Of a DNA stretch of 41,314 nt, positions 16,199-34,199 are shown in pieces. The DNA comes from Ensifer sp. Root278 (GTDB taxonomy: Bacteria; Pseudomonadota; Alphaproteobacteria; Rhizobiales; Rhizobiaceae), in NCBI RefSeq assembly GCF_001429285.1, contig NZ_LMJJ01000019.1, forward strand, positions 1-41,314, in the 5' to 3' direction. Made by a program: the position numbers and the translations under genes. The notes under the pieces are model-generated. The model worked only from the letters and a program-made list of their open reading frames with translations, did no database searches and was not told the origin of the DNA. Positions within the stretch are counted from its first letter, which is position 1. Each line of letters starts with the position of its first letter.

Positions 16199-16202
<4 letters not shown>
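15456..16202 (-). CDS. ABC transporter ATPase, peptide/nickel type (second)
   Basis: A 248-residue ATP-binding subunit of the OppF/DppF group. Walker A is GESGSGKTT, the Q-loop lies in VFQDPYSSLDP (a hallmark of this group), the signature is FSGGQRQRIAIARAI, Walker B is IVLADEAVSALD and the switch His lies in FVSHDLG. The C-terminal KHPYTQRLL is also typical. The usual DEPVSALD reads DEAVSALD here. Three ATG codons in a row (16202, 16199, 16196) could start it; the first overlaps the previous stop (ATGA). It is the last gene of the five-gene operon. Confidence 0.92.
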
Positions 16203-17004
<802 letters not shown>

Positions 17005-17008
<4 letters not shown>

Positions 17009-17856
17009 CGCGATCTCCCGCGTGTCGGATCGCCGATGTCGCGCAGGCCGTCGGCGAGAAGGTTCATGCCGATGACAAGGGCGACCAGGGCGATGCCGGG
17101 AGCAATCGCGCCGATCGGCGCCGTATAGACGGTGCCCTGCGCTTCCTGCAGCAGCCGTCCCCAGGAGGCGTTTGGCGGCGGTGCGCCGAGACCAAGATAG
17201 GAGAGCGACGCCTCGGCGATGACGGCAAGGCCGAACTGCAAAGCGAAATTGACCGAGAGCGTCGGCCAGATATTGGGAAGCACGTGGCGAAAAACGACGC
17301 CGGCCCAAGAGGTTCCCGATGTTCGCGAGGCGACGATATAGTCCTGGCGCAGCACCCGTTTGGCGAGGATGCGGGTCAGCCGAGCGACGGTTGCGGAGAT
17401 CGCGAGGCCAAGGGCCAGGATTGCCGTCCACAGACTGGCGCTGTCGCTTGCCGCGACCACCAACATGGCCAGAAGCAGGGTCGGGAAGGCGATCAGGATA
17501 TCGAGCGTCGCGGCCATCACGTCGTCGGCAAGGCGTGTTGCAAAGGCGGCGAGAACGCCGAGACTGACGCCGACCGTCGCGCCGATCGCAACGGCGCCGG
17601 TGCCGACAAGAAGCGCCGTTCGCGCACCGATCATCAGTTGCGTGAGCAGGTCGCGCCCCAGCCGGTCGGTCCCGAGCCAGTGCAGGAGCGATGGCGCTTC
17701 CAGTCGGCCACCGGAGGCGTTCAAAGGATCGTACGGCGTCCAGAACAGCGTGAGCAGGGCGACGAGCAGATTGATGCCGACGAGCGCGAGCCCGAGGGTG
17801 AGGGCAAGAGAGTGCCGTTGCTCCCGTCTGGATACCGACGTCTCGACCGGGCTCAT
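17005..17856 (-). CDS. ABC transporter permease, DppC type
   Basis: A 283-residue inner-membrane permease. An N-terminal helix (ALTLGLALVGINLLVALLTLF) is followed by HWLGTDRLGRDLLTQLMIGART, the DppC/OppC landmark, four or five further helices, and the EAA loop near residues 185-205 (LRQDYIVASRTSGTSWAGVVFRHVLPN). It forms the pore with the DppB-type partner. ATG 17856 overlaps the stop of that gene (ATGA). Confidence 0.93.
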
Positions 17857-18818
17857 GCGCTGCCTCCAACGGCGCGCTCGCGCAGGCGCGGATCGATCAG
17901 CCGCTGGGTAAGATCGGCGCCAAAGCCGATCAGCAGCACCAGTAGCGTCGAGATGAACAGCACGCCCTGGACGTTGGGATAGTCACGCTGCTCGATCGCG
18001 AGCAGCAGCATCGAGCCGAGACCCGGCAGCGCGAAGACACGCTCGATGACGACGGCGCCGAGCAGGGTCGTGGCAAGCTCGATGCCGAGAATGGAGACGA
18101 TCGGCACGGCGCCGTTGCGGATGCCGTGGCGAACAAGCGCTTCAGGAAAGCTGGCGCCGAGGGCGCGCGCGGTGCGCAGGTAATCGCTGCCGAGAACATC
18201 CTGTGTCGCCGAACGCACGTAGCGCAGCAGCGATGCGCCCATGACGAGCCCGATCGTCAAAACAGGCAGCGCCAGCGCATAGAGCACCTGTCCCTCATTC
18301 TGCCAGCCGCGGCGGGGAAAGCCGCCTGATGGAAACAGCCGGAAGGTGACGGCAAAGACAGTGACGAGCAGGATGCCGACCCAGAAGACCGGAATGGCGA
18401 TGCCGAGCTGCGAGACCGTCGAGATCAATCCGCCATACCAGCGGTCGGCCTTGACGGCCGAGAGAATGCCGAGCGGCACCGCGATCAGAATGGACAGCAG
18501 GAAGCCCATCAGCGCCAGCGGTACGGTGACCGTCAGCCGCGCGGCGATCTCCTCGATCACGGGCTTGCCACTGACGAAGGAGGTGCCGAGATCGAAGCGG
18601 GCGAGGCTGCCGGCAAAACGAAGGAACTGCTGCCAGAGCGGCAGGTTCGAACCGACCTGCTCGCGAGCCTTTTCGATCTGCGCGGCATCGGCGCCGACGG
18701 ACAGAAGCGCATTGGCCGGGTCGCCGGGGAGCAGGCGCAACAACACGAACAGCACCACCGCCGCGATCAGCAGCGACAGGATGAGGATGGCAAAGCGGCG
18801 GACGAGATAGGTGAGAAT
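17853..18818 (-). CDS. ABC transporter permease, DppB type, apparent AUU start
   Basis: The permease carries RLLPGDPANALLSVGADAAQ after the first helix, the PSGGFPRRGW loop and the EAA loop (LGSDYLRTARALGASFPEALVRHGIRNG). The first helix is fully encoded only if translation begins at ATT 18816-18818, giving I/M-LTYLVRRFAILILSL, the canonical DppB start. AAGGA ends eight bases upstream of it. A stop (TGA, 18837-18839) closes the frame seven codons further up, and there is no ATG, GTG or TTG between. The first GTG (18758) would remove the membrane anchor. A nearby ATG at 18824-18826 is in another frame. Either AUU initiates, as in infC, or one base has been lost near the start. Confidence 0.85.
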   Translation of the reverse strand: MLTYLVRRFAILILSLLIAAVVLFVLLRLLPGDPANALLSVGADAAQIEKAREQVGSNLPLWQQFLRFAGSLARFDLGTSFVSGKPVIEEIAARLTVTVPLALMGFLLSILIAVPLGILSAVKADRWYGGLISTVSQLGIAIPVFWVGILLVTVFAVTFRLFPSGGFPRRGWQNEGQVLYALALPVLTIGLVMGASLLRYVRSATQDVLGSDYLRTARALGASFPEALVRHGIRNGAVPIVSILGIELATTLLGAVVIERVFALPGLGSMLLLAIEQRDYPNVQGVLFISTLLVLLIGFGADLTQRLIDPRLRERAVGGSA

Positions 18819-18977
18819 GGCTGCATTCCTTTCTTCTCACGGGGTCCCGCGATCAGAGAAGTTGGCTTTTGCATCAAAACGGAGAGGGAGGCTAGAGCGG
18901 CGGCTCTATTTTAGTGTGGCCTGTATCGGACTGGCCGAAACGGCTCGGGCGAGGCCAAGCAAGCTTGCGGAACGCAA

Positions 18978-19002
18978 AGCCCCCGGATTGGATCCGGGGG
19001 CT
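18978..19002 (-). terminator. Intercistronic hairpin between binding-protein and permease genes
   Basis: AGCCCCCGGAT (18978-18988) and ATCCGGGGGCT (18992-19002) form a perfect eleven-base-pair GC-rich stem with a three-base loop. On the minus strand it starts 33 bases after the binding-protein stop and is followed by only TTTG. It probably stops part of the transcripts and protects the upstream mRNA, giving more binding protein than permease. The rest of 18841-19035 shows no gene. Confidence 0.75.
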
Positions 19003-19035
19003 CTTCATTGCCGCGAAAAGCGGAAGTCGTTTCGC

Positions 19036-20580
19036 TTACTGCTCGCTCTTCTTGATGCCGTAGGCAAAGAACTGCGAGTTCAGACCATTCACCGGGTAGC
19101 CTGACACAGCCGAGCTCGAAACGACGATTTGCGGATAAAGATAGAGCCAGTTGCTGGCGGCATCCTCGGCGATGATCGTGTTGGCTTCCTTGAGCTTGGC
19201 GGTCTGCTCGTCGGTGTTGGCGGCGGCTTCCGAGGCCTTGATCAGGTCGACAACCTTGGGGTTGTTGTAACCCCAGTAGAAGTCCGGGTTGCCGTAGAAG
19301 ACGATGTCGCGGTGGTTGACGTGCTCCTGCAGCGTCGCCTGGAAATCATGTGCCTTGTAGACCTTCGTGTACCATTCGTTGGCGGTGATCACGTTGATCT
19401 CGACCTTGATGTTCACCTTGGCGAGTTCGCTCTGGATGAACTGGGCGACGATCGGGTGCGGGTCGTAGTTCGGCGTGTCGAGCTTGAAGGTGAAGCCATC
19501 GGCAAAGCCTGCTTCCTTCAGGAGCGCCTTGGCGCTTTCGACGTCATAGGTGTCGACGGCGGTGAGGTCCACGTACCAGGGATCGGTCGGCGGCACGAAG
19601 GAGCCGATCAGCGTGCCGTACTCGCCCCAGATCGAGGTCAGCAACTTCTTGTCGTCGATGGCGCGGGCGATCGCCTTCCTGACCTTGACGTTGTCAAAGG
19701 GGGCGACGCGGTCGTTGAAGGCAAGCAGTTGCTTGGTGGTCGACTGGCCGGCGGTTACGGTGAAGTCAGGATTGTCCTTGAACTGGGCGATCGAGTCCGG
19801 GCTCTGGACACTGGTGATGATGTCGACCGCGCCGGTCAGAAGCGCATTGTTGAGTGCGGTTGCGTCGGTGAAGTACTGGAAGACGACTTCGCCATTGGTC
19901 GGTGCTGTGCCCCAATATTTGTCGTTGCGGGTCAATGCCAGCGACGAGCCGCGGCGCCATTCGTCGAGGCGATAGGGGCCGGTGCCGTCTTCGCTGGCGT
20001 TCAGGTCCTTTGCCGCATCGTTGACGATCCAGACGTAGCTCAGATTGTAGGGGAGCGAGATCGAGCGTGCGGACAGCTTGACGACGACGGTTTGGTCATC
20101 GGGCGTCTCAATCGCGCTGATCGTCGAAAGGCTCTTCTTGCGCGAACTCTTGGATTGCTCGGCGGTCACGCGCTCGATGCTGTACTTCACGTCGGCTGCG
20201 GTGAGCGGGTCGCCGGAATGGAAGGCAACGCCAGGGCGAAGCTTGAACGTGTAGGTAAGGCCGTCTTCGCTGACGCTCTGCTCGGCGACCAGACCCGGCT
20301 GGACGTCGCCCGCATCGGTCAGCGTGAACAGCGCTTCATAGACATTGCAGTTGAAGGCTTCGTTGATGCCCTGGCCGGCGCCGGCGGTGTTGTCGAGGTT
20401 CTGCGGCTCGTAGAGCGAGCCGATGGTGATCGAGGCGTTGGGGTCAAACTTGGCGTCCTCGGCGAAGACGGCTGTGCTCGTCGACAGAGCGAGCGCCAGT
20501 GTGGCGGCAGCCAGAGTTGCCCCTCGTGCGCGGCGGGCTTGTCCCGCGGTCTTGCCAAAACCGATGATAGTGCCAGTCAT
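19036..20580 (-). CDS. ABC transporter substrate-binding protein, peptide type (SBP_bac_5)
   Basis: A 514-residue periplasmic binding protein. The signal peptide has a long basic n-region (residues 1-20, QARRARGATL) and a hydrophobic core ending in TAVFA. The mature protein opens with ITIGSLYEPQNLDNT, then GLVAEQSVSEDGLTYTFKLRPGVAFHSGDPLTAADV, the classic family-5 signature, and later VRKAIARAIDDKKL and NYDPHPIVAQFIQ. Substrates of this family include oligopeptides, opines and sugars; the exact ligand is not readable. ATG 20580 has AGGAG eight bases upstream. It is the first gene of its operon and is divergent from the LacI-type regulator. Confidence 0.93.
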   Translation of the reverse strand: MTGTIIGFGKTAGQARRARGATLAAATLALALSTSTAVFAEDAKFDPNASITIGSLYEPQNLDNTAGAGQGINEAFNCNVYEALFTLTDAGDVQPGLVAEQSVSEDGLTYTFKLRPGVAFHSGDPLTAADVKYSIERVTAEQSKSSRKKSLSTISAIETPDDQTVVVKLSARSISLPYNLSYVWIVNDAAKDLNASEDGTGPYRLDEWRRGSSLALTRNDKYWGTAPTNGEVVFQYFTDATALNNALLTGAVDIITSVQSPDSIAQFKDNPDFTVTAGQSTTKQLLAFNDRVAPFDNVKVRKAIARAIDDKKLLTSIWGEYGTLIGSFVPPTDPWYVDLTAVDTYDVESAKALLKEAGFADGFTFKLDTPNYDPHPIVAQFIQSELAKVNIKVEINVITANEWYTKVYKAHDFQATLQEHVNHRDIVFYGNPDFYWGYNNPKVVDLIKASEAAANTDEQTAKLKEANTIIAEDAASNWLYLYPQIVVSSSAVSGYPVNGLNSQFFAYGIKKSEQ

Positions 20581-20666
20581 GTCCCAAACTCCTGCATTGT
20601 GCCTGTCACGCGGATCGCGTCGCCACCCGAATGTACGCACCGGATGATTGCGATGCATCATACTTA

Positions 20667-21000: not shown

Positions 21001-21032
21001 TATCGCATGATTAATCGTTTAATCATGCGATA
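21001..21032. promoter_or_regulatory. Perfect 14-bp-arm palindrome, likely LacI-type operator
   Basis: TATCGCATGATTAA (21001-21014) and TTAATCATGCGATA (21019-21032) are exact reverse complements around TCGT. The core TGATTAATCGTTTAATCA is symmetric about a central CG apart from one T-T position, as in operators of the LacI/GalR family. It ends 16 bases before the TTG start of the LacI-type gene and overlaps its probable -10 and start site. Autoregulation by the encoded repressor is the simplest reading. Confidence 0.75.
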
Positions 21033-21048
21033 GCGGAAACCACGGATT

Positions 21049-22128
21049 TTGGCGCGTTCCGGACCAAAACTAACGAGGATTGCCAGAGCGCTCGGCGTGT
21101 CCGCAGCCACGGTTTCGAACGCGCTCTCCGGCAAGGGCCGCGTGTCTGCCGAAATGGTGGAGAAGATCCGCGCGACCGCGGCCGAGCTCGGTTACGTACC
21201 GAGCCAGGCGGGCAGGGCGCTCAGGACCGGTCGCACCGGCGTCATCGGTCTCGTTCTTCCCGATATCGCCAATCCGCTCTTCCCCCAGATCGCCCAGGCG
21301 ATCGAGCTTGCCGCCTCGTCGTCGGGCTACGGCGTGCTGATTGCGGACTCGCGCGGCGACGTCTCGACCCAGACCAAGGCGATCGAGCGGCTGATCGACC
21401 GCGACGTCGACGGCCTGGTGATCGTGCCGCGGCGCGGTACCCGCGTCGCCGATGTCGGCTGTCCGGTTGCCGTCATCGATACGCCCTCGACGCCCGGCAA
21501 CACGGTTGCCGCCGACCACTGGGGTGGCGGCCAGCAGATCGCCGAGCACCTGAAGGCGCTCGGGCACCGGCGCGTGCTGATCATCGGCAACAATCCCGCC
21601 TCGAACGTGCAGAACGACCGCGCCGGCGGCATCCGCTCCGTCTTCGGCCAAGGGCTTCATACCGACACGCTCTGGATCGAGCCCTTGGAGAAAGTGTCCG
21701 GAAAGGGCTGTCCGCTCGGGCTCGCCGGGAAGGTGGCGGAAGGCTACACCGCGTTTGCCTGCATCTCCGATCTCCATGCGCTCCGGGCACTGACCGAATT
21801 GCAGCGCGCCGGCATCAATGTTCCGGAAAAGGCGAGCGTGACCGGTTTTGACGATCTGATCTGGTCGCCGGTTATCACTCCAGCGCTCACGACCGCGCGC
21901 ATGGACATGACCGAGATTGCCGCGATTGCCGTTGCCGCGCTCGTCAAGGCGATCCGCGAGCGCGATCCGTTCGATCCCGAGATCGGCGCACCGGTCACGG
22001 CCGAGAAGTCGAAAGTGCCGATGCATCTGGTCGTCAGGCAATCGGCCGCCGCACCGCCCGCGCTTCAACCCGTTCATACCACTGCCACCGCAGCCACATC
22101 CGTCACCGAAGGAGGACACCAGTCATGA
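21049..22128 (+). CDS. LacI-family transcriptional regulator
   Basis: A 359-residue repressor. The N-terminal helix-turn-helix is clear (LTRIARALGVSAATVSNALSGKGRVS), with the hinge helix region LGYVPSQAGRALRTGRTGVIGLV. The periplasmic-binding-protein-like domain follows, with LPDIANPLFPQIAQAIELAA and, near the end, ASVTGFDDLIWSPVITPALTT. TTG 21049 is the only plausible start, because an in-frame TAG lies at 21031-21033. The last 25 residues are Ala/Thr/Pro-rich and include the overlap with the next gene's AAGGAGG site. The stop overlaps the binding-protein ATG (ATGA). The effector is probably a purine, nucleoside or breakdown product, judged from the operon. Confidence 0.92.
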   Translation: MARSGPKLTRIARALGVSAATVSNALSGKGRVSAEMVEKIRATAAELGYVPSQAGRALRTGRTGVIGLVLPDIANPLFPQIAQAIELAASSSGYGVLIADSRGDVSTQTKAIERLIDRDVDGLVIVPRRGTRVADVGCPVAVIDTPSTPGNTVAADHWGGGQQIAEHLKALGHRRVLIIGNNPASNVQNDRAGGIRSVFGQGLHTDTLWIEPLEKVSGKGCPLGLAGKVAEGYTAFACISDLHALRALTELQRAGINVPEKASVTGFDDLIWSPVITPALTTARMDMTEIAAIAVAALVKAIRERDPFDPEIGAPVTAEKSKVPMHLVVRQSAAAPPALQPVHTTATAATSVTEGGHQS

Positions 22129-23144
22129 AGAAGTTCCTGCTTGCCTCGAGCGCGCTCTTGCTCGTCGCCCCTGCCGCGTCTGCTCAGGAAAAGACGCTCA
22201 CAATTTCCGTCTACGGCTTTGCCCAGGACGCATTCAAGGAGCTTGTCTACACGCCGTTTGAGCAGAAGTGCGGTTGCAAGCTGGTGGTCGAAACCGGCAA
22301 CAGCGTCGAGCGCCTGGCAAAGATGGAAGCCAACAAGGCAAGCCCGGTTGTCGACATGGCCGTCGTTTCGATGGCCGACGCGCTCTCGGCTTCGCGCGCT
22401 GACCTGATCGAAAAGATCGACACCTCGAAGCTCCAGAACTTCAACAAGCTCTATGACCTTGCCAAGGATCCGAACGGCGACGGCATGAGCGTCGGCTACA
22501 CCTTCTACGCAACCTCGATCGTCTATCGCTCGGACAAGATGGAAGTGAATTCCTGGGCCGATCTGCTCGACGAGAAGAACGCCAGCCACGTCGCCTTCCC
22601 GAACGTCACGACCAACCAAGGCCCGCCGGCGCTCTACATGGTTGGCGAGGCCATCGGCAAGAATACGCCGGACCTCAAGGAAGCGATTGCCGCCGTCGGT
22701 GCCAAGAAGGACGACATCGTCACCTTCTACGTCAAGTCTTCGCAGCTCGTGCAGTTGATGCAGCAGGAAGAGATCTGGGCCGCACCGATCGGCCGCTTCT
22801 CTTGGGAAGGCTTCACCAAGCTCGGCCTGCCAATCAAGTGGGCAACGCCGAAGGAAGGCCAGACCGGCGGCATGAATGTGATGGTGCTGACCAAGGGCGG
22901 CAAGAACCAGGACTTGGCGCTTCAGTTCATGGATTTCTGGCTCTCGACCGAAATCCAGACGGCGCTCGCCGAAAAGCTGGTCGACAGCCCGGCCAACAAG
23001 GACGTCAAGGTTTCGCCGGAGATCGCCGAGAACCTGACCTACGGCGAAGAGACGGTGAAGAACCTGAAGCTGATCCCCTCGGCTGTTGCCCTCGACAACC
23101 GCGAAGCGTGGCTGTCGGAGTGGAACGCGCAGGTCGGCCAGTAA
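22125..23144 (+). CDS. ABC transporter substrate-binding protein, PotD/iron type
   Basis: A 339-residue periplasmic protein with a clean signal peptide (KKFLLASSALLLVAPAASA, cut before QEK). The mature sequence has the SBP_bac_8/PotD style: LTISVYGFAQDAFKELVYTPFE, DMAVVSMADALSASRADL, and GYTFYATSIVYRSDKM. A Cys-Gly-Cys at residues about 49-51 follows the first helix. Family members bind polyamines, thiamine, Fe(III) or small anions, but the downstream nucleoside hydrolase and adenine deaminase make a purine or nucleoside ligand likely here (inference). AAGGAGG precedes ATG 22125, which overlaps the regulator's stop. Confidence 0.88.
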   Translation: MKKFLLASSALLLVAPAASAQEKTLTISVYGFAQDAFKELVYTPFEQKCGCKLVVETGNSVERLAKMEANKASPVVDMAVVSMADALSASRADLIEKIDTSKLQNFNKLYDLAKDPNGDGMSVGYTFYATSIVYRSDKMEVNSWADLLDEKNASHVAFPNVTTNQGPPALYMVGEAIGKNTPDLKEAIAAVGAKKDDIVTFYVKSSQLVQLMQQEEIWAAPIGRFSWEGFTKLGLPIKWATPKEGQTGGMNVMVLTKGGKNQDLALQFMDFWLSTEIQTALAEKLVDSPANKDVKVSPEIAENLTYGEETVKNLKLIPSAVALDNREAWLSEWNAQVGQ

Positions 23145-23158
23145 GCCAAACAACTGAA

Positions 23159-23189
23159 CTCCATCGGCCGAACTTTTCGGCCGGTGGAG
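23159..23189 (+). terminator. Intercistronic hairpin after the binding-protein gene
   Basis: CTCCATCGGCCGAA (23159-23172) pairs with TTCGGCCGGTGGAG (23176-23189) across CTT, with one G-U pair. It begins 14 bases after the stop and has no T-run. It resembles the hairpin at the same place in the other ABC operon and probably raises binding-protein mRNA relative to the permeases. Confidence 0.7.
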
Positions 23190-23244
23190 CCACGGCCACC
23201 GGGACGGGCAGGCCGCTCTACTTGATGCCTTGAAAGGAAGAAGG

Positions 23245-24072
23245 ATGTTTCAGAACCGCGCCGAAGCCCTGGCGCTCGCTCTGCCCGCAGCGGTCTTTGC
23301 GGCGATCGTCTTTCTTGCGCCGGTGGTGATCCTGCTGGCGGAAGGCTTTCGCAACGCCGACAGCTGGTCGCTGTCGGCCTATACGACCTTTTTCTCGGAT
23401 CCGCTGAACCGCACCGTCTTCCTGCGTACCTTCCGACTTGGTCTGATGGTCACCGCTGTTTCGGCGGTCATTGGCTATGCCGCGGCCTTTGCCATCGTCA
23501 ATCTGACGCCGCGCAACAAGGGGCAGATGATCGGCCTCGTCGTGCTGCCGCTGATGATCTCGTCGGTTGCCCGCACCTATGCCTGGATCGTCATCCTCGG
23601 CCGCACCGGCATCGTTAACCAGGCGCTGCAACTGGTCGGCCTCTCGGATGAGCCGATCCGCTTTCTCTTTACCGAAACGGCCGTCTTCATCGGTCTCCTT
23701 CAGCTCTTCCTGCCGCTGATGATCCTGTCCTTGATCAGCGCGCTTGAGAACATGCCGAAGGATGCAATTCCTGCGGCGCGTGTTCTTGGCGCCAACTGGT
23801 TCCAGGTGTTCTTCAAGGTGATCCTGCCGCTCACCAAAGAGGGCCTTGTGATCGGCGGCACGCTGGTCTTCACCGGCTCGCTGACGGCCTACATCACGCC
23901 TGCGATCCTCGGCGGTTCCAAGGTGCTGATGCTCGAAACGCTGCTCTACCAGCGCGTCACCGTCGCCAACGATTTCGTCGCAGCCAGCGTCATCGCCTTC
24001 ATTTTGATCGTCATGAGCTTTGCCGCCAATCTTCTTTTGAAACGGCTTGCCACCGCGAGGAACAAGCGATGA
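23245..24072 (+). CDS. ABC transporter permease, PotB type
   Basis: A 275-residue permease with six helices. The first is ALALALPAAVFAAIVFLAPVVILL, and the EAA loop reads ALENMPKDAIPAARVLGANWFQVFFKVILPL (residues about 172-202). ATG 23245 is chosen because AAAGGA lies six bases upstream; a TTG five codons earlier is less likely. The stop overlaps the next permease (ATGA). Confidence 0.92.
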   Translation: MFQNRAEALALALPAAVFAAIVFLAPVVILLAEGFRNADSWSLSAYTTFFSDPLNRTVFLRTFRLGLMVTAVSAVIGYAAAFAIVNLTPRNKGQMIGLVVLPLMISSVARTYAWIVILGRTGIVNQALQLVGLSDEPIRFLFTETAVFIGLLQLFLPLMILSLISALENMPKDAIPAARVLGANWFQVFFKVILPLTKEGLVIGGTLVFTGSLTAYITPAILGGSKVLMLETLLYQRVTVANDFVAASVIAFILIVMSFAANLLLKRLATARNKR

Positions 24073-24848
24073 CACCCCGCGTCTTTTCACCCCTTGTGCT
24101 CTTCCTGGTGATTGGCTTCCTGATAGGGCCGTTCTTCATCATCGTCGCCGCCTCGCTTTCAGGCGGCGAGACGCTGGCCTTCCCACCGCAGGGCTTCTCG
24201 CTCAAATGGGTCGCCAAGGTCTTCACTGTCGAGAGCTTCCGCGAGAGCTTCGCGATCTCGATGCTTTTGGCGATCGGCGGTACGGCTGCGGCGCTTGTGC
24301 TTGGCGTTCCCGCGTCCTATGCGCTTTCACGCTACAAGCTGCCGTTCGGCGAAACCATCCGCACGATCGTGTCGCTGCCGATCATTGTGCCGGGCATCAT
24401 CGTCGGCCTGGCGCTGCTGCGCTACATCGTCGTGCCCTTCGGTTTCAACATCACGCTGACCCTGTTTCTCGCGCATACGGCGCTGGTTCTGCCCTATGCG
24501 GTGCGGGTGGTCTCGGCGAGCCTCAACAACCTGCGCTCCGACATCGAGGAGGCGGCCGTGCTGCTCGGCTCCTCGCGCGCCGGCGCCTTCTTCCGCGTGG
24601 TGATGCCGAACATCCGCAGCGGCATCTTGGCCGCCTTCATCCTCGGCTTCGTCACGAGCTTCAACCAGGTGCCGGTATCGCTCTTCCTTTCCGGCCCCGG
24701 CGTGCGCACGCTGCCGATCGACATGCTCTCCTACATGGAGATCACCTACGATCCGTCGGTCGCCGCCCTCTCGGCACTGCTCGCCTTCATGTCCATCGGC
24801 ATCGTCTTCCTTGCCGAACGCTTCCTGGGATTCTCTCGCTATGTCTGA
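24069..24848 (+). CDS. ABC transporter permease, PotC type
   Basis: A 259-residue permease with six helices: LVLFLVIGFLIGPFFIIVAASL first, then LLAIGGTAAALVLGVPASYAL. The EAA loop is NLRSDIEEAAVLLGSSRAGAFFRVVMPN (residues about 153-180). It pairs with the preceding permease. It overlaps that gene by four bases and the ATPase gene by eight. Confidence 0.92.
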   Translation: MTPRVFSPLVLFLVIGFLIGPFFIIVAASLSGGETLAFPPQGFSLKWVAKVFTVESFRESFAISMLLAIGGTAAALVLGVPASYALSRYKLPFGETIRTIVSLPIIVPGIIVGLALLRYIVVPFGFNITLTLFLAHTALVLPYAVRVVSASLNNLRSDIEEAAVLLGSSRAGAFFRVVMPNIRSGILAAFILGFVTSFNQVPVSLFLSGPGVRTLPIDMLSYMEITYDPSVAALSALLAFMSIGIVFLAERFLGFSRYV

Positions 24849-25869
24849 CGCCGCCTTCCTCAGCCTTGAAAAACTGACGCTCGCCTATGGCGATACCGTT
24901 GCGGTGAAGGATCTCGACCTTTCGATCCGCAAGGGCGAACTCGTGGCGTTCCTCGGACCGTCCGGTTGCGGCAAGACGACGACGATGCGCTCGATCGCCG
25001 GCCTGCTGACGCCGGCCTCCGGTGCCATCAGGCTCGACGGTGCCGATATCACTCGGGTCTCCGCAAACAAGCGCTCCGTCGGTCTAGTCTTCCAGTCCTA
25101 TGCACTGTTCCCGCACCTGACCGTGTTCGAAAACGTCGCCTTCGGCCTGCGGCTGAAGAAGCTGCCGGCGACAGAGATCGAGAGCAAGGTAACGGCCGGG
25201 CTGAAGTCGGTCGGGCTTTCGAAGTTCTCCGCCCGTAAGCCGGGCGAACTCTCGGGCGGCCAGCAGCAGCGCGTGGCGCTGGCGCGCTCGATGGTCATGG
25301 AGCCGAAGGTGCTGCTTCTCGACGAGCCGCTGTCGAACCTCGACGCCCGCCTGCGCCTCGAAATGCGAACGGAATTGCAGCGCGTCCAGAAGGAAACCGG
25401 CGTCACGATGATCTTCGTCACCCACGACCAGGGCGAAGCCCTGTCGCTGGCGGATCGGATCGTCGTCATGCTCAACGGCGCGATTGAGCAGATCGGCACG
25501 CCCGAGGATATCTACAACCGCCCGATCTCGCGCTTCGTCGCCGATTTCGTCGGCTTCGAGAACATCTTTGCCGTCGAGGGCGGCAAGCTTGCGGTCGGCA
25601 ACGGCCCGATCGATCTTTCCGGATCCCTGCCGCCTGACACGGCAGGGCTTGCGTGGCGTCCGCGCATGGTGACCCTTGGTTCAGGTCCTTTCCAAGGCAC
25701 CGTGCGCGGAGCCTCTTTCTCCGGCAGCACGCGCGAATACCTGCTCGATACGCCGCTCGGTGCCATCAAGGCCGAGGAAGATGCCGCATTGGCGGCGCGC
25801 GAAACCGGCTCTACGATTGCCTTCGATCTCCCGGTCGACAAGGCTGCGCGCCTCAAGAAGTTCGGTTGA
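24841..25869 (+). CDS. ABC transporter ATPase, PotA type
   Basis: A 342-residue ATPase. Walker A is GPSGCGKTT, the Q-loop lies in VFQSYALFPHLTVFENVAFGL, the signature is LSGGQQQRVALARS, Walker B is LLLDEPLSNLD and the switch His lies in FVTHDQGEAL. After residue about 235 comes a shorter TOBE-like regulatory domain (LAWRPRMVTLGSG, FSGSTREYLLDTP). The start ATG 24841 overlaps the permease end by eight bases. It powers the importer of this operon. Confidence 0.93.
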   Translation: MSDAAFLSLEKLTLAYGDTVAVKDLDLSIRKGELVAFLGPSGCGKTTTMRSIAGLLTPASGAIRLDGADITRVSANKRSVGLVFQSYALFPHLTVFENVAFGLRLKKLPATEIESKVTAGLKSVGLSKFSARKPGELSGGQQQRVALARSMVMEPKVLLLDEPLSNLDARLRLEMRTELQRVQKETGVTMIFVTHDQGEALSLADRIVVMLNGAIEQIGTPEDIYNRPISRFVADFVGFENIFAVEGGKLAVGNGPIDLSGSLPPDTAGLAWRPRMVTLGSGPFQGTVRGASFSGSTREYLLDTPLGAIKAEEDAALAARETGSTIAFDLPVDKAARLKKFG

Positions 25870-25875
25870 CGTCAT

Positions 25876-26796
25876 ATGGGTGTCTGGATCGATACGGACA
25901 TGGGCTTCGACGACATCGCCGCGGTGCTTGTCGTCCTTCATGCCGCTGAAGAAATCGACGGCGTTTCGCTCGTCTTCGGCAACACGCCGATCGAACAGGT
26001 GAAGCGCAACGCCGCCAGTGCCGCGCTCGCCTTCGGCTGGAACTTCCCCATCCATGAGGGCCGCGCCTCGCCAGTGCTTGGCAGGCTTGAGACTGCCGAA
26101 CGTATTCTCGGCGAGGCCGGCATGCCGACCGCCGGGCTGACGCTGCCGCGAGCCGATGCACTGCCGCAAAGCGACGCTTTCGCTGCTCTCTCAGCCTGGT
26201 TGGAACAGGAAGGGCCAAAGCGCATTCTCGCTCTCGGGCCGCTCACCAACCTTGGCGCCCTCTGCCTTGCCCGCCCGGACCTTGCCGCGCGCATCACCGA
26301 CCTTACCTGGATGGGCGGCGGCGTCACCAGCGGCAACCACACAGCCTCCGCCGAATTCAACGCCTTTGCCGATCCGGAGGCGCTTGCCATCGTGCTCGCG
26401 CACGGCCTGCCGCTGCGCATGGTCGATCTCGATCTCTGCCGCAAGGTCTTTGCCTATCCGGACGACGTTGCGCCGATCCGCTCGGCCGGCGGCGTCAATG
26501 CCGCGCTGATCGCCGATCTGCTTGCCGGATACATCTCGATCGGTACCAGCCGTGGACGCCCGGGCATGGCGATCTATGACCCCTCAGCCGCCGTCGCCTT
26601 CGTCAACCCCGGCGCAGTCTCCTTTAAGAGCGCACGTATCGATGTCGAGCTTGGCGGATCCCTGACGCGAGGGCGTACCGTCGTCGAAACCCGCGCGAGC
26701 CATGCGACCTTCAATGCCGAATACGCCGTTGACGCACACGTCGAGACGACGCGGGCCCAGATCCTGGGTGCGTTGATGAAAGAAGCGCAGAAATGA
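25876..26796 (+). CDS. Inosine/uridine-preferring nucleoside hydrolase family
   Basis: A 306-residue enzyme of the IU-nucleoside hydrolase fold. The calcium- and ribose-binding motif DTDMGFDD occupies residues 6-13, and LALGPLTNLGAL, TWMGGGVTSGNHTASAEFNAFADPEA (the second ribose/Ca site) and LDLC follow. It should split a purine or pyrimidine nucleoside into ribose and base in the cytoplasm. It starts six bases after the ATPase stop and overlaps the adenine deaminase gene (ATGA), so supply of adenine from adenosine is a natural role. Confidence 0.92.
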   Translation: MGVWIDTDMGFDDIAAVLVVLHAAEEIDGVSLVFGNTPIEQVKRNAASAALAFGWNFPIHEGRASPVLGRLETAERILGEAGMPTAGLTLPRADALPQSDAFAALSAWLEQEGPKRILALGPLTNLGALCLARPDLAARITDLTWMGGGVTSGNHTASAEFNAFADPEALAIVLAHGLPLRMVDLDLCRKVFAYPDDVAPIRSAGGVNAALIADLLAGYISIGTSRGRPGMAIYDPSAAVAFVNPGAVSFKSARIDVELGGSLTRGRTVVETRASHATFNAEYAVDAHVETTRAQILGALMKEAQK

Positions 26797-28574
26797 ACTC
26801 CGTGCTGCAGCCTCAGGACCTGGCCGATGCGGCGCTCCGGACCCGCGCGGTGGCCGCAGCGCGCGGTGAGCAACCCTTCGACATCCTGATACAAGGCGGG
26901 ACGCTGGTCGACGTGGTCACCGGCGAGCTTCGTCCGGCCGATATCGGTCTGGTCGGATCGTTGATCGCGAGCGTGCACGAGCCCGGCACGCGCAGCGACG
27001 CGGCTGATATCATCGATGCGGGCGGTGCCTTCGTTTCACCTGGCCTGATCGATACGCATATGCATGTCGAAAGTTCGATGGTGACACCGGCGACCTATGC
27101 CAACGCGGTGCTGCCGCGTGGTGTCACGACCGTTGTCTGGGACCCGCATGAGTTCGGCAACGTCAACGGTGTCGCTGGAGTGCGGTGGGCTGCGGATGCC
27201 ATTCGCGATCTGCCGCTGCGCACCGTTCTGCTGGCGCCGTCCAGCGTACCGTCGGCGCCGGGTCTGGAACTGGCCGGCGCCGATTTCGACGCGGGCATCA
27301 TCGCCGACATTTTGAGCTGGCCGGAAATCGGCGGCATTGCCGAGATGATGAACATGCGCGGCGTCATCGACGGCGAGGCGCGCATCAGCGCTATCGTCCA
27401 GGCCGGGCTCGCCGCCGGCAAGCCGGTCAACGGCCATGCGCGCAGCCTTGCCGGCACCGACCTTCAGGCGTTCGTCACCGCAGGCGTCAGCTCCGACCAC
27501 GAGCTCGTGTCCGGCGACGATCTGATGGCGAAGCTGAGAGCAGGGTTGTCGATTGAACTGCGCGGCTCGCACGATCACCTGTTGCCTGAGTTCGTCAATA
27601 CCCTCAATGCCCTAGGCCATCTTCCTCAGACGGTGACGCTCTGTACCGACGACGTCTTTCCGGACGATCTCGCCCGCGCTGGCGGCCTTGATGATGTCGT
27701 CCGCCGGTTGGTCCGCTACGGCCTGCCCGCCGAATGGGCGCTACGGGCGGCGACGCTCAACGGTGCCGTCCGGCTCGGCCGGCACGATCTGGGGCTCGTT
27801 GCGCCCGGACGCCGGGCGGATATCGTGGTCTTCGAGGACCTGAGCGAGTTCCGCACGCGCACGGTGATCGTCGACGGCAAGGTCATCGCGAAGAGCGGTG
27901 ACATGATCGAGCCGCTGACTGACATCGATGTCGCGCCGTTATACGGCACGATGAAAATTGCACCGCTCGCAGAGGCCGATTTCCGCATCTGCGCTGCCGG
28001 AACGAAGGTGCGCGTCGCGACCATCGATCGCCCGCGTTTCACCCAATGGGCCGAAGCAGTTGCCGAGGTGGAAGGCGGCTTCGTCGTGCCGCCCGAGGGG
28101 ACTACGGTGATCGCAGTCGCGCACCGCCACGGGCGCGCTGACAGCCGGCCACGCGTCGGCTTGCTTTCGGGTTGGGGCGCCTGGCGCGGGGCCTTCGCCA
28201 CCACGGTCTCGCACGACAGCCACAACCTCACCGTCTTCGGTGGCAACGCTGCAGACATGGCTGTGGCGGCCAATGCGGTGATCGCCGCCGGCGGCGGCAT
28301 GGCCGTCGCGTCCGGCGGCAAGGTTGACGTTCTCCTGCCGCTACCGATTTGCGGGTTGGTTTCGGAACAGCCGCTCGCGGAGATAGCTGCCGGCTTCGCA
28401 GAACTTCGCGATGCTGTTGGCCGCATTGTGGATTGGCAGCCACCCTATCTGGTCTTCAAGGCCTGTTTTGGCGCGACGCTCGCCTGCAACGCCGGACCGC
28501 ACCAGACCGACCGCGGCATCGCCGATGTCGCAATCGGCAAACTGATGGAAAGCCCGATATTGGAAGTGCTTTGA
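26793..28574 (+). CDS. ade: Adenine deaminase
   Basis: A 593-residue amidohydrolase-superfamily enzyme converting adenine to hypoxanthine and ammonia. The metal-binding DTHMHVESSM lies at residues 87-96 (His89, His91). The adenine deaminase hallmarks follow: TTVVWDPHEFGNVNG, PGLELAGADF, GIAEMMNMRGVI, NGHARSLAGTDLQAFVTAGVSSDHE, and LCTDDVFPDDL. The C-terminal domain includes FGGNAADMAVAANAVIAAGGGMAV. Length matches the family (about 550-600). It is the last gene of the LacI-led operon. Confidence 0.94.
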   Translation: MNSVLQPQDLADAALRTRAVAAARGEQPFDILIQGGTLVDVVTGELRPADIGLVGSLIASVHEPGTRSDAADIIDAGGAFVSPGLIDTHMHVESSMVTPATYANAVLPRGVTTVVWDPHEFGNVNGVAGVRWAADAIRDLPLRTVLLAPSSVPSAPGLELAGADFDAGIIADILSWPEIGGIAEMMNMRGVIDGEARISAIVQAGLAAGKPVNGHARSLAGTDLQAFVTAGVSSDHELVSGDDLMAKLRAGLSIELRGSHDHLLPEFVNTLNALGHLPQTVTLCTDDVFPDDLARAGGLDDVVRRLVRYGLPAEWALRAATLNGAVRLGRHDLGLVAPGRRADIVVFEDLSEFRTRTVIVDGKVIAKSGDMIEPLTDIDVAPLYGTMKIAPLAEADFRICAAGTKVRVATIDRPRFTQWAEAVAEVEGGFVVPPEGTTVIAVAHRHGRADSRPRVGLLSGWGAWRGAFATTVSHDSHNLTVFGGNAADMAVAANAVIAAGGGMAVASGGKVDVLLPLPICGLVSEQPLAEIAAGFAELRDAVGRIVDWQPPYLVFKACFGATLACNAGPHQTDRGIADVAIGKLMESPILEVL

Positions 28575-28730: not shown

Positions 28731-29906
28731 CTATTCGGCGCGCGGCAGCTCCTGCTCCACCAGCGTCGACCAGAAGGCAACGCCCGGGCCGATCGCGGCG
28801 TCGTTGAAATCATAGGCGGTGTTGTGATGCAGCGCGCCGTCGACGGCGGGGCCGTTGCCGAGCCACACATAGCAGCCCGGAGCTTCGAGCCCGAAAAAGG
28901 CGAAATCGTCGCCGGCGGTGGAGGGCGGAAATGCCGTGCGGGTCTTTTTGCCGAAGACGGCTTGGGCCGCCTTCAGCGCCCGGGCGGTCGCATCGCCATC
29001 GTTGACGACGGGTGGGATGCGGCGCTCGAATTCGTAGTCGACCGCAATCCCGTACATTTCCGCCGTGCCCCGGGCCAGTCGTCCGATCTCGGTTTCGAGC
29101 TGGTCGCGCACTTCGGGTGTATAGGCGCGGGCGGTGCCGCCGATTTCCACGATGTCGGGGATCACGTTCAGTGCTTTTGGGTCGCCGGCACGCACGGAGC
29201 AGGCGCTGACGACGGCCGGTTGCAAGGGATCGACGACGCGGCCGACGATCGACTGCAGCGAGGCAAGGAAGGTACCGGCCGCCGTTACGGGGTCGCGGCC
29301 GAGATGCGGCTTGGCACCGTGGGTTCCGACACCGCGGAAGGTCAGACGCCAGCTGTCCGAGGAGGCGAGCTGCGGCCCGGCGACGACGGCGATTTCGTCC
29401 GGATCGAGGCCGGGCATGTTGTGCAGACCGTAGACGGCGTCGCAGGGAAAACGCTGAAACAGCCCTTCCTCGACCATGCGCTTCGCGCCGCCGCGGCCTT
29501 CCTCGGCCGGTTGGAAAATGAAATGAACGGTGCCTGAGAAATTGCGGGTCTTTGCCAGATGGCGGGCGGCACCGAGCAGTAATGTGGTGTGGCCGTCATG
29601 GCCGCAGGCATGCATCTTGCCGGCTTCGCGGGACTTGTAGGGTCGGTCGGCGATTTCGGGCATGGCGAGTGCGTCCATGTCGGCGCGAAGACCGATCGAG
29701 CGCGTGCCGTTGCCCACTTGCAGGGTGCCGACGACGCCGGTTTTTCCCAAGCCTCGATGGACCTTTAGCCCGGCGGCCTCGAGCCATTTGGCAACGAGGT
29801 CGCTGGTGCGCTCCTCCTCGAACCCGAGTTCCGGATGGGCATGCAGATCGCGACGGAAGTCCGTGAGGAAGGCGAGGTCGTCAGCAATTCCGTCTGGCAG
29901 GCGCAT
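28731..29906 (-). CDS. M20-family amidohydrolase (hippurate hydrolase-like)
   Basis: A 391-residue zinc/manganese-type aminoacylase. It has RRDLHAHPELGFEEERT at the N-terminus, GLRADMDALAMPE, MHACGHDGHTTLLLGAA with the metal-binding Cys/His/Asp cluster, FQPAEEGRGGAKRM with the catalytic Glu pair, and a small dimerisation domain (HGAKPHLGRDPVTAAG). PSTAGDDFAFF near the end carries further ligands. Members hydrolyse N-acyl amino acids or similar amides. ATG 29906 is taken; the open frame continues upstream but looks non-coding. The gene converges on ade, with 156 gene-free bases between, and is divergent from the phosphoribosyltransferase. Confidence 0.92.
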   Translation of the reverse strand: MRLPDGIADDLAFLTDFRRDLHAHPELGFEEERTSDLVAKWLEAAGLKVHRGLGKTGVVGTLQVGNGTRSIGLRADMDALAMPEIADRPYKSREAGKMHACGHDGHTTLLLGAARHLAKTRNFSGTVHFIFQPAEEGRGGAKRMVEEGLFQRFPCDAVYGLHNMPGLDPDEIAVVAGPQLASSDSWRLTFRGVGTHGAKPHLGRDPVTAAGTFLASLQSIVGRVVDPLQPAVVSACSVRAGDPKALNVIPDIVEIGGTARAYTPEVRDQLETEIGRLARGTAEMYGIAVDYEFERRIPPVVNDGDATARALKAAQAVFGKKTRTAFPPSTAGDDFAFFGLEAPGCYVWLGNGPAVDGALHHNTAYDFNDAAIGPGVAFWSTLVEQELPRAE

Positions 29907-30097: not shown

Positions 30098-30778
30098 ATG
30101 CAGCCTCACGACTTCTGGCAGGAGGTCTACCCGCCGAAAAGTTTCGGCATTCAGGCGGGTTATCGCGATTTCTTCCCGGCAACGCTCGGCGACGGCCGCC
30201 AGATATTGCTGCCGATCCGGCCGCTCTCGGATGGCAGGCACGCGCTCGCCTCGCTGATCGTCAACCAGGCGAGCTTTGCGGTGGAAGATGCGCTGGCCAC
30301 CGAACTTGCGGCAAAGCTTGCCGCCTTCGAGCCCGATGTCGTGGCCGGTCTCCCGACATTGGGCCTGACGCTTACTTCTGCCGTTGCGCGCAAGCTCGGC
30401 CATAGCCGCTACGTGCCGCTCGGTACATCAAGAAAATTCTGGTATGTCGACGACCTGTCGGTGCCGCTCTCCTCGATCACGACGCCGGACCAGAAGAAGC
30501 GGCTCTACGTCGATCCGCGCATGCTTCCACTGCTCGAGGGGCGACGTGTCGCGCTGATCGACGACGTGATATCGAGCGGCACGTCGATCCTGGCCGGGCT
30601 GACCCTGATGGAGGCTTGCGGCATCGAGCCGGTCGCGATCGGCGCCGCCATGCTGCAGACCGAGCGCTGGCGACAGCCGCTCGCCAACCTCGCGCCTTAT
30701 TGGCCGGAACGCGTCGTGGGGGTGTTCCAGACCCCGATGCTCGCGCGCAGCGACGATGGCACTTGGCAGGTGGTCTGA
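30098..30778 (+). CDS. Type I phosphoribosyltransferase domain protein
   Basis: A 226-residue protein. The PRPP-binding loop is VALIDDVISSGTS (residues about 151-163), with the two acidic residues and the GTS expected of type I enzymes. VVAGLPTLGLTLTSAVARKLG supplies the first phosphate-binding part, and GTSRKFWYVDDLSVPLSSIT the flexible hood. The family includes adenine, hypoxanthine, xanthine and pyrimidine enzymes as well as PRTase-fold regulators. Its closeness to a nucleoside hydrolase and adenine deaminase suggests purine-base salvage, but this is inference. ATG 30098 has a GAGGACGGAA stretch upstream. Confidence 0.8.
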   Translation: MQPHDFWQEVYPPKSFGIQAGYRDFFPATLGDGRQILLPIRPLSDGRHALASLIVNQASFAVEDALATELAAKLAAFEPDVVAGLPTLGLTLTSAVARKLGHSRYVPLGTSRKFWYVDDLSVPLSSITTPDQKKRLYVDPRMLPLLEGRRVALIDDVISSGTSILAGLTLMEACGIEPVAIGAAMLQTERWRQPLANLAPYWPERVVGVFQTPMLARSDDGTWQVV

Positions 30779-32311: not shown

Positions 32312-32797
32312 TTACTTCTTCACGACGTAGAGCGGACCGTGCATGCCGGCGTCGTAGTGGCCGGGCACCAGGCAGGCGAACTCGAAGGTGCCGTCATTGG
32401 TGAAGGTCCAGTAGATGTCGCCGGATTTGCCGGGCTCGAGCCGGATGGCGTTCGGGTCGTCGTGCTCCATGTCGGGGAACTTCTCCATGGTGATCTTGTG
32501 TTCCTGGATCGTCGCCTTGTCGTCGAGAACGAATTCATGGGCCAATTCGCCGGCATTCTTGATCGCGAAATGAACGGTCTGGCCCTGACGCACCTTGATG
32601 GTCGCCGGGGTGAAGATCATCTTGCCGTCGTCGGTTTCCTTCATCGTGACGCGGATCGTCTGCGTCGCCTTCTTGCTGTCACCGGGCTCGCCGACGGACA
32701 CTTTGTCGTGGCCGCCCGCGTGGCTGCCCGATGCGAGCGCCTGGGCGGAGAAGGCAGAGGCGACAACGAGCGCCAGAGCGAATGCTGTTTTCTTCAT
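32312..32797 (-). CDS. Secreted cupredoxin (type 1 copper) protein
   Basis: A 161-residue blue-copper-fold protein with signal peptide (ALALVVASAFSAQALA). The four ligands are visible as His87 (AHEFVL), Cys142, His147 and Met152 (ACLVPGHYDAGMHG). An N-terminal His-rich stretch (SHAGGHD) and a KFPDMEHDDPNA loop are typical of the plastocyanin/azurin-like proteins found in copper clusters. It may carry electrons or copper for the multicopper oxidase encoded just upstream. ATG 32797 is the start that gives the signal peptide. Confidence 0.9.
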   Translation of the reverse strand: MKKTAFALALVVASAFSAQALASGSHAGGHDKVSVGEPGDSKKATQTIRVTMKETDDGKMIFTPATIKVRQGQTVHFAIKNAGELAHEFVLDDKATIQEHKITMEKFPDMEHDDPNAIRLEPGKSGDIYWTFTNDGTFEFACLVPGHYDAGMHGPLYVVKK

Positions 32798-32847
32798 CGT
32801 ATGGTTCCTGGTGGAATTGAGAGAATTCATCGTGGTCAGCCGTTGCT

Positions 32848-34185
32848 TCATGGTTTCGGCGTGATCACGGTCTTGGCACCCTTTGCCCGCGTTGCTTCCG
32901 GCAGTTCGCCGGTCCACTCCCAGGCTTGTGTTCCCGGCGGGTTCTCGTACCAGCCGGGATCGCTGTAATCGCCGGCGGAGATGCCTTCGCGCACCTTCAC
33001 CACCGAGAACATTCCGCCCATCTCCAACGCGCCGTGCGGACCCCAGCCGGTCATCATCGGGATCGTGTTGTCGGGGAGCGGCATTTCCATTTCGCCCATG
33101 TCGGCCATGCCGGCCGTTCCCATGGGCATGTAGTCGGGCTTGACCTTGCGGATCTTCGCCGCGACCGATGTCTTGTCGGCGCCGATGAAGGTCGGGATAT
33201 CGTGGCCCATCGCATTCATCGTGTGGTGCGATTTGTGGCAATGGATCGCCCAGTCGCCCTCATACTTTGCGTCGAATTCGTAGGCGCGCATGGCGCCGAC
33301 GGGGATGTCGATCGACACTTCCGGCCACCGCGCCTCCGGCCGCACCCAGCCGCCATCGGTGCAGGTTACCTCGAAATCGTAGCCGTGCATGTGGATCGGA
33401 TGGTTGGTCATGGTGAGGTTTCCGACCCTCACCCGCACCCGGTCGTTCTTGGACACGACCAGCGGGTCGATATCGGGGAAGATCCGGCTGTTCCAGCACC
33501 ACATGTTGAAGTCGGTCATCTCCATGATCTTCGGCACGTAGGTGCCGGGATCGATGTCGTAGGCGTTGAGCAGGAACACGAAGTCGCGGTCGACGCGCAT
33601 GAAGTCCGGGTCCTTCGGATGCACCACGAAGAAGCCCATCATGCCCATGGCCATCTGCACCATCTCGTCGGCGTGGGGATGGTACATGAAGGTGCCCGAC
33701 TTCACGAGGTCGAACTCGTAGACATAGGTCTTGCCCGAGGGGATGTGCGGCTGCGACAGTCCGCCCACGCCATCCATGCCCGAGGGCAGGATCATGCCGT
33801 GCCAGTGGATGGTGGTGTGTTCCGGCAGCTTGTTGGTGACGAAGATCCGAACGCGGTCGCCTTCGACCGCCTCGATCGTCGGACCCGGCGACTGGCCGTT
33901 GTAACCCCAGAGATAGGCGGTCATACCGTCGGCCATTTCGCGTTCGACCGGCTCGGCGACGAGGTGAAATTCCTTGACGCCGTTGTTCATGCGGTGTGGC
34001 AGTGTCCAGCCGTTGAGGGTGACGACCGGGTTGTAGTCAGGTCCGCTCGTCGGCACCAGCGGCTTCTGGGTCGCGGCATTGTCCATGCTTGCCGCTTCGG
34101 GCAGGCCGGAGTTGGAGGTTTGCGCCCATGCGGCGGTGGAAACGAGAGCCGCGCCTGCACCAAGGAAGTGTCTTCTGTTGAACAT
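32848..34185 (-). CDS. Tat-exported multicopper oxidase
   Basis: A 445-residue three-domain oxidase. The N-terminus NRRHFLGAGAAL is a twin-arginine-type signal. All copper motifs are present: TIHWHGMI, FMYHPHADEM, NHPIHMHGYDFE and IHCHKSHHTMNAM, covering the type 1 and trinuclear sites. A Met-rich segment follows the last site (MPMGTAGMADMGEMEMPLP), as in Cu(I)-oxidising members of the family, and the protein continues about 125 residues beyond the last site. It should oxidise Cu(I) to less toxic Cu(II) in the periplasm. ATG 34185 has AAGGA upstream and lies 14 bases after the TolC-like stop. Confidence 0.93.
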   Translation of the reverse strand: MFNRRHFLGAGAALVSTAAWAQTSNSGLPEAASMDNAATQKPLVPTSGPDYNPVVTLNGWTLPHRMNNGVKEFHLVAEPVEREMADGMTAYLWGYNGQSPGPTIEAVEGDRVRIFVTNKLPEHTTIHWHGMILPSGMDGVGGLSQPHIPSGKTYVYEFDLVKSGTFMYHPHADEMVQMAMGMMGFFVVHPKDPDFMRVDRDFVFLLNAYDIDPGTYVPKIMEMTDFNMWCWNSRIFPDIDPLVVSKNDRVRVRVGNLTMTNHPIHMHGYDFEVTCTDGGWVRPEARWPEVSIDIPVGAMRAYEFDAKYEGDWAIHCHKSHHTMNAMGHDIPTFIGADKTSVAAKIRKVKPDYMPMGTAGMADMGEMEMPLPDNTIPMMTGWGPHGALEMGGMFSVVKVREGISAGDYSDPGWYENPPGTQAWEWTGELPEATRAKGAKTVITPKP

Positions 34186-34199
34186 GATCCTATTCCTTC

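Follow-up and report, generated by a model that had tools for sequence, protein, structure and literature searches.

A conserved LacI-associated operon of rhizobia joins a PotD-like importer to a nucleoside hydrolase and an adenine deaminase

Contig NZ_LMJJ01000019.1 of Ensifer sp. Root278 carries, within the 41,314-nucleotide stretch analyzed here (positions 1 to 41,314; hereafter the window), an apparent operon in which a PotD-like ATP-binding cassette (ABC) importer lies together with a nucleoside hydrolase gene and an adenine deaminase gene (ade). Seven co-directional open frames on the plus strand, from 21049 to 28574, encode a LacI-family regulator, a periplasmic binding protein, two permeases, an ATPase, the hydrolase, and the deaminase. 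We propose that they form a locally regulated operon for the uptake and breakdown of a purine ribonucleoside, most likely adenosine, and we consider this reading probable. The purine specificity of the importer would follow from its gene neighborhood. A first-pass annotation had described a LacI-controlled, purine-related importer of the PotD/SBP_bac_8 type at this place, and the conserved operon and its operator support that description.

In the pathway that we envisage, the SBP_bac_8 protein would capture the nucleoside in the periplasm, and the two permeases and the ATPase would import it. The hydrolase, apparently cytoplasmic, would cleave the nucleoside to ribose and base, as its family and neighbors suggest. 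Adenine would then be converted to hypoxanthine and ammonia, the reaction given in the literature for the Agrobacterium deaminase, and the hypoxanthine could be salvaged by a phosphoribosyltransferase or oxidized. The LacI-type repressor would bind a palindrome ahead of its own gene and be released by a riboside or by ribose. An open-access literature search, with subscription journals and databases outside its coverage, returned no paper on this importer.

Conservation of the gene set

We compared the operon with relatives from two sources. Near loci are the best 80 of 248 binding-protein relatives from one scan of a genome collection. Distant loci come from sampled, overlapping sets of 385 class, 297 order, and 398 phylum genomes, searched at an E value threshold of 1e-40, which gave 35 places besides the window, 21 with binding-protein identities of 47 to 81% and 14 with 28 to 37%. 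The binding protein is 99% identical to that of Ensifer adhaerens ST2.

All seven genes are present, with order and strand unchanged, in 77 of the 80 near loci, which excludes a chance arrangement. The three exceptions are L030, at a contig end; L038, which is without ade; and L014 (Sinorhizobium sp. 8-89), which has the importer alone. Among the 21 distant loci at 47 to 81% identity, 20 have a hydrolase, 18 have ade, and 18 have a LacI relative; the hydrolase is divergent and ade absent at L117 and L118. Over both sets (101 loci), the hydrolase is present in 98, L030 ends too early, and L014 and L114 are real exceptions. At L114, lacI and the operator accompany an additional copy of the importer, and the other copy in the same genome, L107, has both hydrolase and ade. 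The first-pass annotation had named conservation of the gene order as a check, and transporter genes occurring widely without the hydrolase and ade as a pattern that would speak against it; the order is conserved as described, and within this clade such transporters are not common. At L014, a carbamoyltransferase gene lies upstream of the four importer genes, and at L114 a DUF3500 gene (L114:678-1760) takes the place of the hydrolase and ade behind the importer.

The same annotation gave the cargo as a purine nucleoside or adenine. Of these, a nucleoside is likelier, since L038, L117, and L118 keep the importer and the hydrolase without ade and no examined locus shows the reverse; adenosine would be the simplest cargo because ade is nearly always present. 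The retention of ade in 77 of 80 near and 18 of 21 distant loci would also suit an importer of free adenine (or hypoxanthine), with the hydrolase serving nucleosides that enter otherwise. The three loci just named argue against this alternative, as does a second arrangement in the Root278 genome, where an NCS2 (Xan_ur_permease) gene lies between two further ade genes, next to which is a gene for a LysR regulator (L144:8151-13276); NCS2-type permeases are a usual route for bases. We regard free-base import as improbable.

A second, more distant set of loci bears on the nucleoside reading. Five of the 14 relatives at 28 to 37% (L120, L121, L122, L123, and L128), with binding proteins 31 to 36% identical to that of the window, form a second group. 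The hydrolase and ade are both present in four of them, L120, L121, L123, and L128, and L122 has only a deaminase-type amidohydrolase. The second-group hydrolases are 28 to 39% and the deaminases 30 to 32% identical to those of the main group, to which the window belongs, and the four hydrolases retain both histidines typical of group I enzymes. Given this distance, the importer type has different kinds of purine-nucleoside enzymes as neighbors. Three of the five loci have an extra amidohydrolase of the TRZ/ATZ - MTA/SAH-deaminase type, under the model cut-offs (4f0r is the closest solved relative of the one in L120), and L128 has a protein of the allantoate-amidohydrolase family, above cut-off. 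Neither hydrolase nor ade was found in the retrieved stretches of the other nine relatives by tblastn with the window proteins and a few Pfam scans, which very distant enzymes could escape. Two Root278 paralogues, L134 and L135, the best two of 15 other binding-protein matches in that genome, have neither within 19 kb.

A tree built from 49 binding proteins supports both groups well, the main one (32 rows) at 99/96 and the second (5 rows) at 100/99. Linkage to a hydrolase requires 4 changes on this tree, compared with 13.2 after shuffling, and none of 500 shuffles was as low, a contrast that near-copies inflate.

Binding protein and importer families

No transporter gene reaches the curated cut-off of any family model among those listed. 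Relatives of the binding protein in the PDB include 4edp, 3pu5, and PotD, and the best family models are PotD, PhnS, PotB, PotC, and PhnT2, all below their cut-offs; the PotD model of NCBIfam, for instance, scores 59 bits against a cut-off of 582. A Pfam scan of the binding protein returned four SBP_bac families only and no PF02608 (Bmp) domain. In architecture and Pfam families, the importer resembles PotABCD, the spermidine/putrescine system of E. coli, although it lies under the Pot model cut-offs and the binding proteins are 26% identical. The BmpA/PnrA/Nup nucleoside importers share its presumed cargo class but have a binding protein of a different family, PF02608 rather than PF13416.

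Residues were mapped onto the E. coli PotD sequence from NC_000913. In PotD, D168, E171, and D257 contact the polyamine, as does E36, and W229, W255, and S83 are also ligand residues. In all 102 main-group proteins, D168 is replaced by Val, Ile, or Leu, E171 by Asn, Thr, or Ser, and D257 by Asn, and both tryptophan positions are changed as well; S83 is mostly retained. Since the three acids are replaced throughout, a polyamine cargo is unlikely. More broadly, the importer could carry a polyamine, thiamine, iron, or 2-aminoethylphosphonate and merely adjoin purine genes. The names of its best models would fit this, as would the position of E36, which stays acidic; moreover, no hydrolase accompanies the importer of L014 and L114, and a likely homologous ATPase of Rhizobium etli, RHE_RS17470, is annotated as spermidine/putrescine in the accessible text of PMC9611204. 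Against it stand the low model scores, the loss of the five PotD residues, and the linkage to a hydrolase, which holds for 98 of the 100 loci that are informative and recurs in the second group. We therefore give this possibility very little credence.

The two groups share further features of the binding protein. The pair C49 and C51 occurs in all 102 main-group proteins and in four of the five second-group proteins; all 11 unlinked relatives lack it. A set of 17 positions, each fixed to at least 95% within the main group, is common to at least four of the five second-group proteins and to none of the 11. The C-x-C, which is C49-G-C51 in the window (22269-22277), is possibly a disulfide or a metal site. 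An AlphaFold2 model of the binding protein, built with 21 close sequences, had a mean predicted local distance difference test score of 61, too low for reading the pocket or searching by fold.

Hydrolase, deaminase, and the nature of the cargo

One hydrolase per locus was aligned (99 from the main group and 4 from the second, 103 in total). The motif DTDMGFDD that the first-pass annotation reported is found at residues 6 to 13, and the Ca-site residues D6, D8, D12, D13, and D235 are invariant in all 103 sequences. The active site departs from the known pattern elsewhere. The histidine of the β3-α3 loop is Leu (L78) in at least 96% of the 99 main-group hydrolases, and the histidine before the last Asp is Tyr (Y234) in 97 and Phe in 2; five solved enzymes aligned with the hydrolase have His at both positions. 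According to the accessible text of PMC8910321, nucleoside hydrolases are grouped by His/His (group I), Trp/Trp (group II), or Cys (group III), with archaeal exceptions that are without the second residue. The hydrolase therefore shares the family and the Ca-site acids but not the characteristic residues of group I (IU-NH/Rih), group II (IAG-NH), or group III, and its Leu/Tyr pair is not among the group descriptions in that portion of the paper. As judged from these residues, the leaving-group chemistry must differ from that of group I. The same source states that group II enzymes activate the purine leaving group by Trp stacking, so the Tyr could be compatible with a preference for purines. 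The N termini, inspected by eye, show no evident signal peptide; thus, the substrate should be inside the cell.

The deaminase is orthologous to adenine deaminase 2 of Agrobacterium tumefaciens, Atu4426 (PDB 3nqb, 3t81, and 3t8l), which the accessible text of PMC12133300 describes as deaminating unmethylated adenine. An Agrobacterium version of the operon (L062) contains a copy that scores 1171 bits against 3nqb and shares 73% identity with the deaminase of the window. All 100 aligned deaminases have the metal-ligand histidines and Glu and the catalytic Asp expected of adenine deaminases (COG1001), with H89, H91, E184, H215, H236, D286, and D287 unchanged throughout. The window protein includes PF13382 (Adenine_deam_C) and scores 353 bits with TIGR01178, under the cut-off of 472.5.

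Several observations weigh against purine nucleoside uptake as the function of the operon. The importer of L014 stands without lacI, hydrolase, and ade, and no close hydrolase was found anywhere in that genome (best match, 33% identical); the 2.2 kb between the L114 ATPase and the contig end likewise holds no hydrolase or ade. Occurrence is also patchy, even within the family to which Root278 belongs: binding-protein matches were found in 6 of 385, 28 of 297, and 7 of 398 sampled genomes, with the Root278 genome counted each time, and 12 genomes of the same family in the phylum sample had no match at E 1e-40. Many rhizobia and soil bacteria related to them carry the gene set, and others do not. 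With respect to the binding protein, the E36 position is still Asp or Glu in 102 of 102 sequences; close relatives in the sample weaken the tree-shuffle test; the two hydrolase-linked groups lie on one side of a branch with weak support (75/23); and the deep joins of the tree are unsure, with several long branches. The hydrolase has neither group I histidine, pyrimidine-specific enzymes head its PDB matches, and, by alignment to 1mas, just one is present of the two tyrosines in helix α8 that are needed for purines in group I (PMC8910321, accessible text). Finally, the Root278 genome encodes five Bmp-family binding proteins elsewhere. The Bmp family is the usual nucleoside-binding protein type, so the cargo of this importer may be special rather than general.

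This last consideration raises the possibility of another N-riboside or a modified nucleoside as the cargo, such as N6-modified adenosine, deoxyadenosine, or a cytokinin riboside. The unusual Leu/Tyr site would fit such a substrate, together with W4, W108, W145, and R226, which are conserved in the main-group hydrolases only. A gene for an M20 amidohydrolase that follows ade in the window (Table 1) would fit as well. It is present in 62 of 77 complete near loci, and in seven (L015, L022, L023, L025, L036, L058, and L066) it lies after ade on the same strand, with a gap of 9 to 24 bp. Relatives 69 to 73% identical, partly cut by the stretch ends, are found near the nonorthologous hydrolase/ade clusters of L120, L121, and L123, whereas the seven further M20 genes identified in the Root278 genome reach no more than 48% identity to this one. 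Since the orthologous Agrobacterium deaminase is described, in the accessible text of PMC12133300, as acting on unmethylated adenine, we consider a modified cargo unlikely.

A more specific version of this idea is salvage of N6-acylated or carbamoylated adenosine, for example, threonylcarbamoyl-adenosine from tRNA turnover. The C-x-C importer would bring in the nucleoside, the Leu/Tyr hydrolase, as a fourth active-site class, would remove the ribose, the M20 enzyme would strip the N6 group, and the deaminase would finish the pathway. We know of no salvage pathway for such adenosines, although no search aimed at one was made, and we offer the scheme as a long shot. Uptake of an unmodified purine ribonucleoside, most likely adenosine, is the reading that we retain.

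Regulator, gene layout, and neighboring genes

The regulator contains PF00356 and PF13377, both above cut-off, and among NCBIfam models a RbsR scores best, at 162 bits but under its cut-off of 382. The first-pass annotation had the repressor sensing a purine; for a purine base, this is not supported. The positions of R190 and T192, two base contacts of PurR, are Ser and Val in all 98 aligned regulators, and PurR-like base sensing found no support. Equivalents of R196, D248, and D275 are kept, together with a P-x-F, features partly common to RbsR. These pocket features weakly suggest a riboside or ribose as the inducer.

A palindromic operator candidate with a central CG precedes lacI. Matches to the sequence TTAAWCGWTTAANC lie in front of lacI at every near locus but one, 79 of 80; the exception, L014, is without lacI and has none. 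Among the distant loci, 18 carry a LacI relative, and the 12-base core, TTAAWCGWTTAA, occurs in 16 of these; L106 has a near variant and L111 has none. The operator is the sole exact match in the 7.1-Mb genome, where two more sites have 2 mismatches each. With one exact operator only, a wider regulon, that is, a global purine regulon, was dropped.

Local control of nucleoside use by LacI-type regulators is common to AdeR-type regulons: the accessible text of PMC4052901 (Ravcheev et al., 2014) counts the LacI-type AdeR, HpxR, and UriR among five groups of local nucleoside-utilization regulators. The operon regulator may be this AdeR, a lead only, as that text does not give the AdeR genes or genomes. 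Expression data may touch the same genes in R. etli CFN42, for which the accessible text of PMC9611204 lists, in minimal medium, the LacI regulator RHE_RS17450, the “spermidine/putrescine” ATPase RHE_RS17470, and the adenine deaminase RHE_RS17480, with other isoenzymes listed for bacteroids. The spacing of these tags fits the seven-gene order, and RHE_RS17470 is probably the homologous ATPase.

The seven genes have the Pfam families expected from the first-pass annotation and lie where it placed them, in the order LacI plus Peripla_BP_3, SBP_bac_8, BPD_transp_1 (twice), ABC_tran, IU_nuc_hydro, and Amidohydro_1 plus Adenine_deam_C. Of the six tight joints that it claimed, five overlap or nearly touch: there are 4-bp overlaps between lacI and the binding-protein gene, between the two permease genes, and between the hydrolase gene and ade, an 8-bp overlap between the second permease and ATPase genes, provided that the ATPase starts at ATG 24841, and a gap of 6 bp between the ATPase and hydrolase genes. 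The sixth joint is spaced. The binding-protein gene is separated from the first permease gene by 85 bp, if the latter starts where its frame opens (TTG 23230), or by 100 bp to ATG 23245, which by eye has the better ribosome-binding site. This spacer folds at -37.6 kcal/mol (z score, -3.2), with none of 200 shuffles equally stable. A stem of -16 kcal/mol or lower is present in 98 of 98 relatives' spacers of 30 to 320 nucleotides, a figure without shuffle control; L117 and L118, with spacers of just 8 to 14 nucleotides, were excluded. The hairpin is perhaps an mRNA-stabilizing element.

Table 1. Operon features and downstream genes in the window
Feature	Position	Strand	Basis or remarks
Operator	21002..21031	.	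Inverted repeat, 13-bp arms, 4-bp center; core palindrome TGATTAATCGTTTAATCA at 21008-21025
LacI-family regulator, TTG start	21049..22128	+	Pfam LacI and Peripla_BP_3
Periplasmic binding protein, SBP_bac_8 (PotD-like), with C-x-C (C49, C51)	22125..23144	+	Pfam, PDB relatives, PotD residue comparison
Spacer hairpin, binding protein/first permease	23159..23189	+	Folding energy versus shuffles
ABC permease 1 (PotB/PotH-like)	23245..24072	+	Pfam BPD_transp_1; NCBIfam PotB is top match, under cut-off
ABC permease 2 (PotC/PotI-like)	24069..24848	+	Pfam BPD_transp_1; NCBIfam PotC is top match, under cut-off
ABC ATPase; frame opens at TTG 24811, ATG 24841 is likely start	24841..25869	+	Pfam ABC_tran; NCBIfam PhnT2 and PotA under cut-off
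Nucleoside hydrolase; Ca-site acids kept, L78/Y234 for group I histidines	25876..26796	+	Pfam IU_nuc_hydro, 2e-63; alignments
Adenine deaminase, orthologue of A. tumefaciens adenine deaminase 2 (Atu4426, PDB 3nqb)	26793..28574	+	953 bits, 589 residues
M20 amidohydrolase (YxeP/IAA-amino-acid hydrolase type)	28731..29906	-	TIGR01891 above cut-off; PDB 1ysj best
Phosphoribosyltransferase (PRK06031)	30098..30778	+	NCBIfam, 393 bits versus cut-off of 175

The phosphoribosyltransferase that the first-pass annotation noted 1.5 kb beyond ade is present, but the M20 gene lies between them on the opposite strand; a shared transcript is thus unlikely in the window, and the gene was rejected as an operon member there. 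Elsewhere, it is found in 43 of 77 complete loci, on the strand of ade in all 43, and directly after ade in L019, L046, L060, L063, and L065; in the seven loci where M20 follows ade on the same strand, the phosphoribosyltransferase match overlaps the end of M20. It is likely part of the operon in some genera. In Sinorhizobium meliloti Ak57, an NCS2 permease comes after the phosphoribosyltransferase (L090:17700-18957); the L090 record is labeled pSymA, and the operon copy of S. meliloti 1021 is on pSymB.

Upstream of the operon (16199-20661, minus strand), the frames look by eye like a divergent ABC importer of the oligopeptide/dipeptide type; of the 10 loci L001 to L010, 9 have its binding protein close to the operon. 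Farther downstream (32312-34203, minus strand), two frames resemble a cupredoxin-like protein and a multicopper oxidase, also by eye.

We propose as new, from sequence comparison, an importer type for purine nucleosides and a hydrolase in which Leu and Tyr replace the two group I histidines. The finding is perhaps not wholly unforeseen, because a LacI-type AdeR has already been named for nucleoside use in the accessible text of PMC4052901. The hydrolase offers a test case for N-ribohydrolase function without either group I histidine. Members of the importer group can be recognized by C49-x-C51, N251, D287, and the neighboring hydrolase, where family models name such importers after polyamines, iron, thiamine, or phosphonates. 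If our reading is true, a number of alphaproteobacterial genes carry the wrong names, and the importer family would gain a new kind of cargo.

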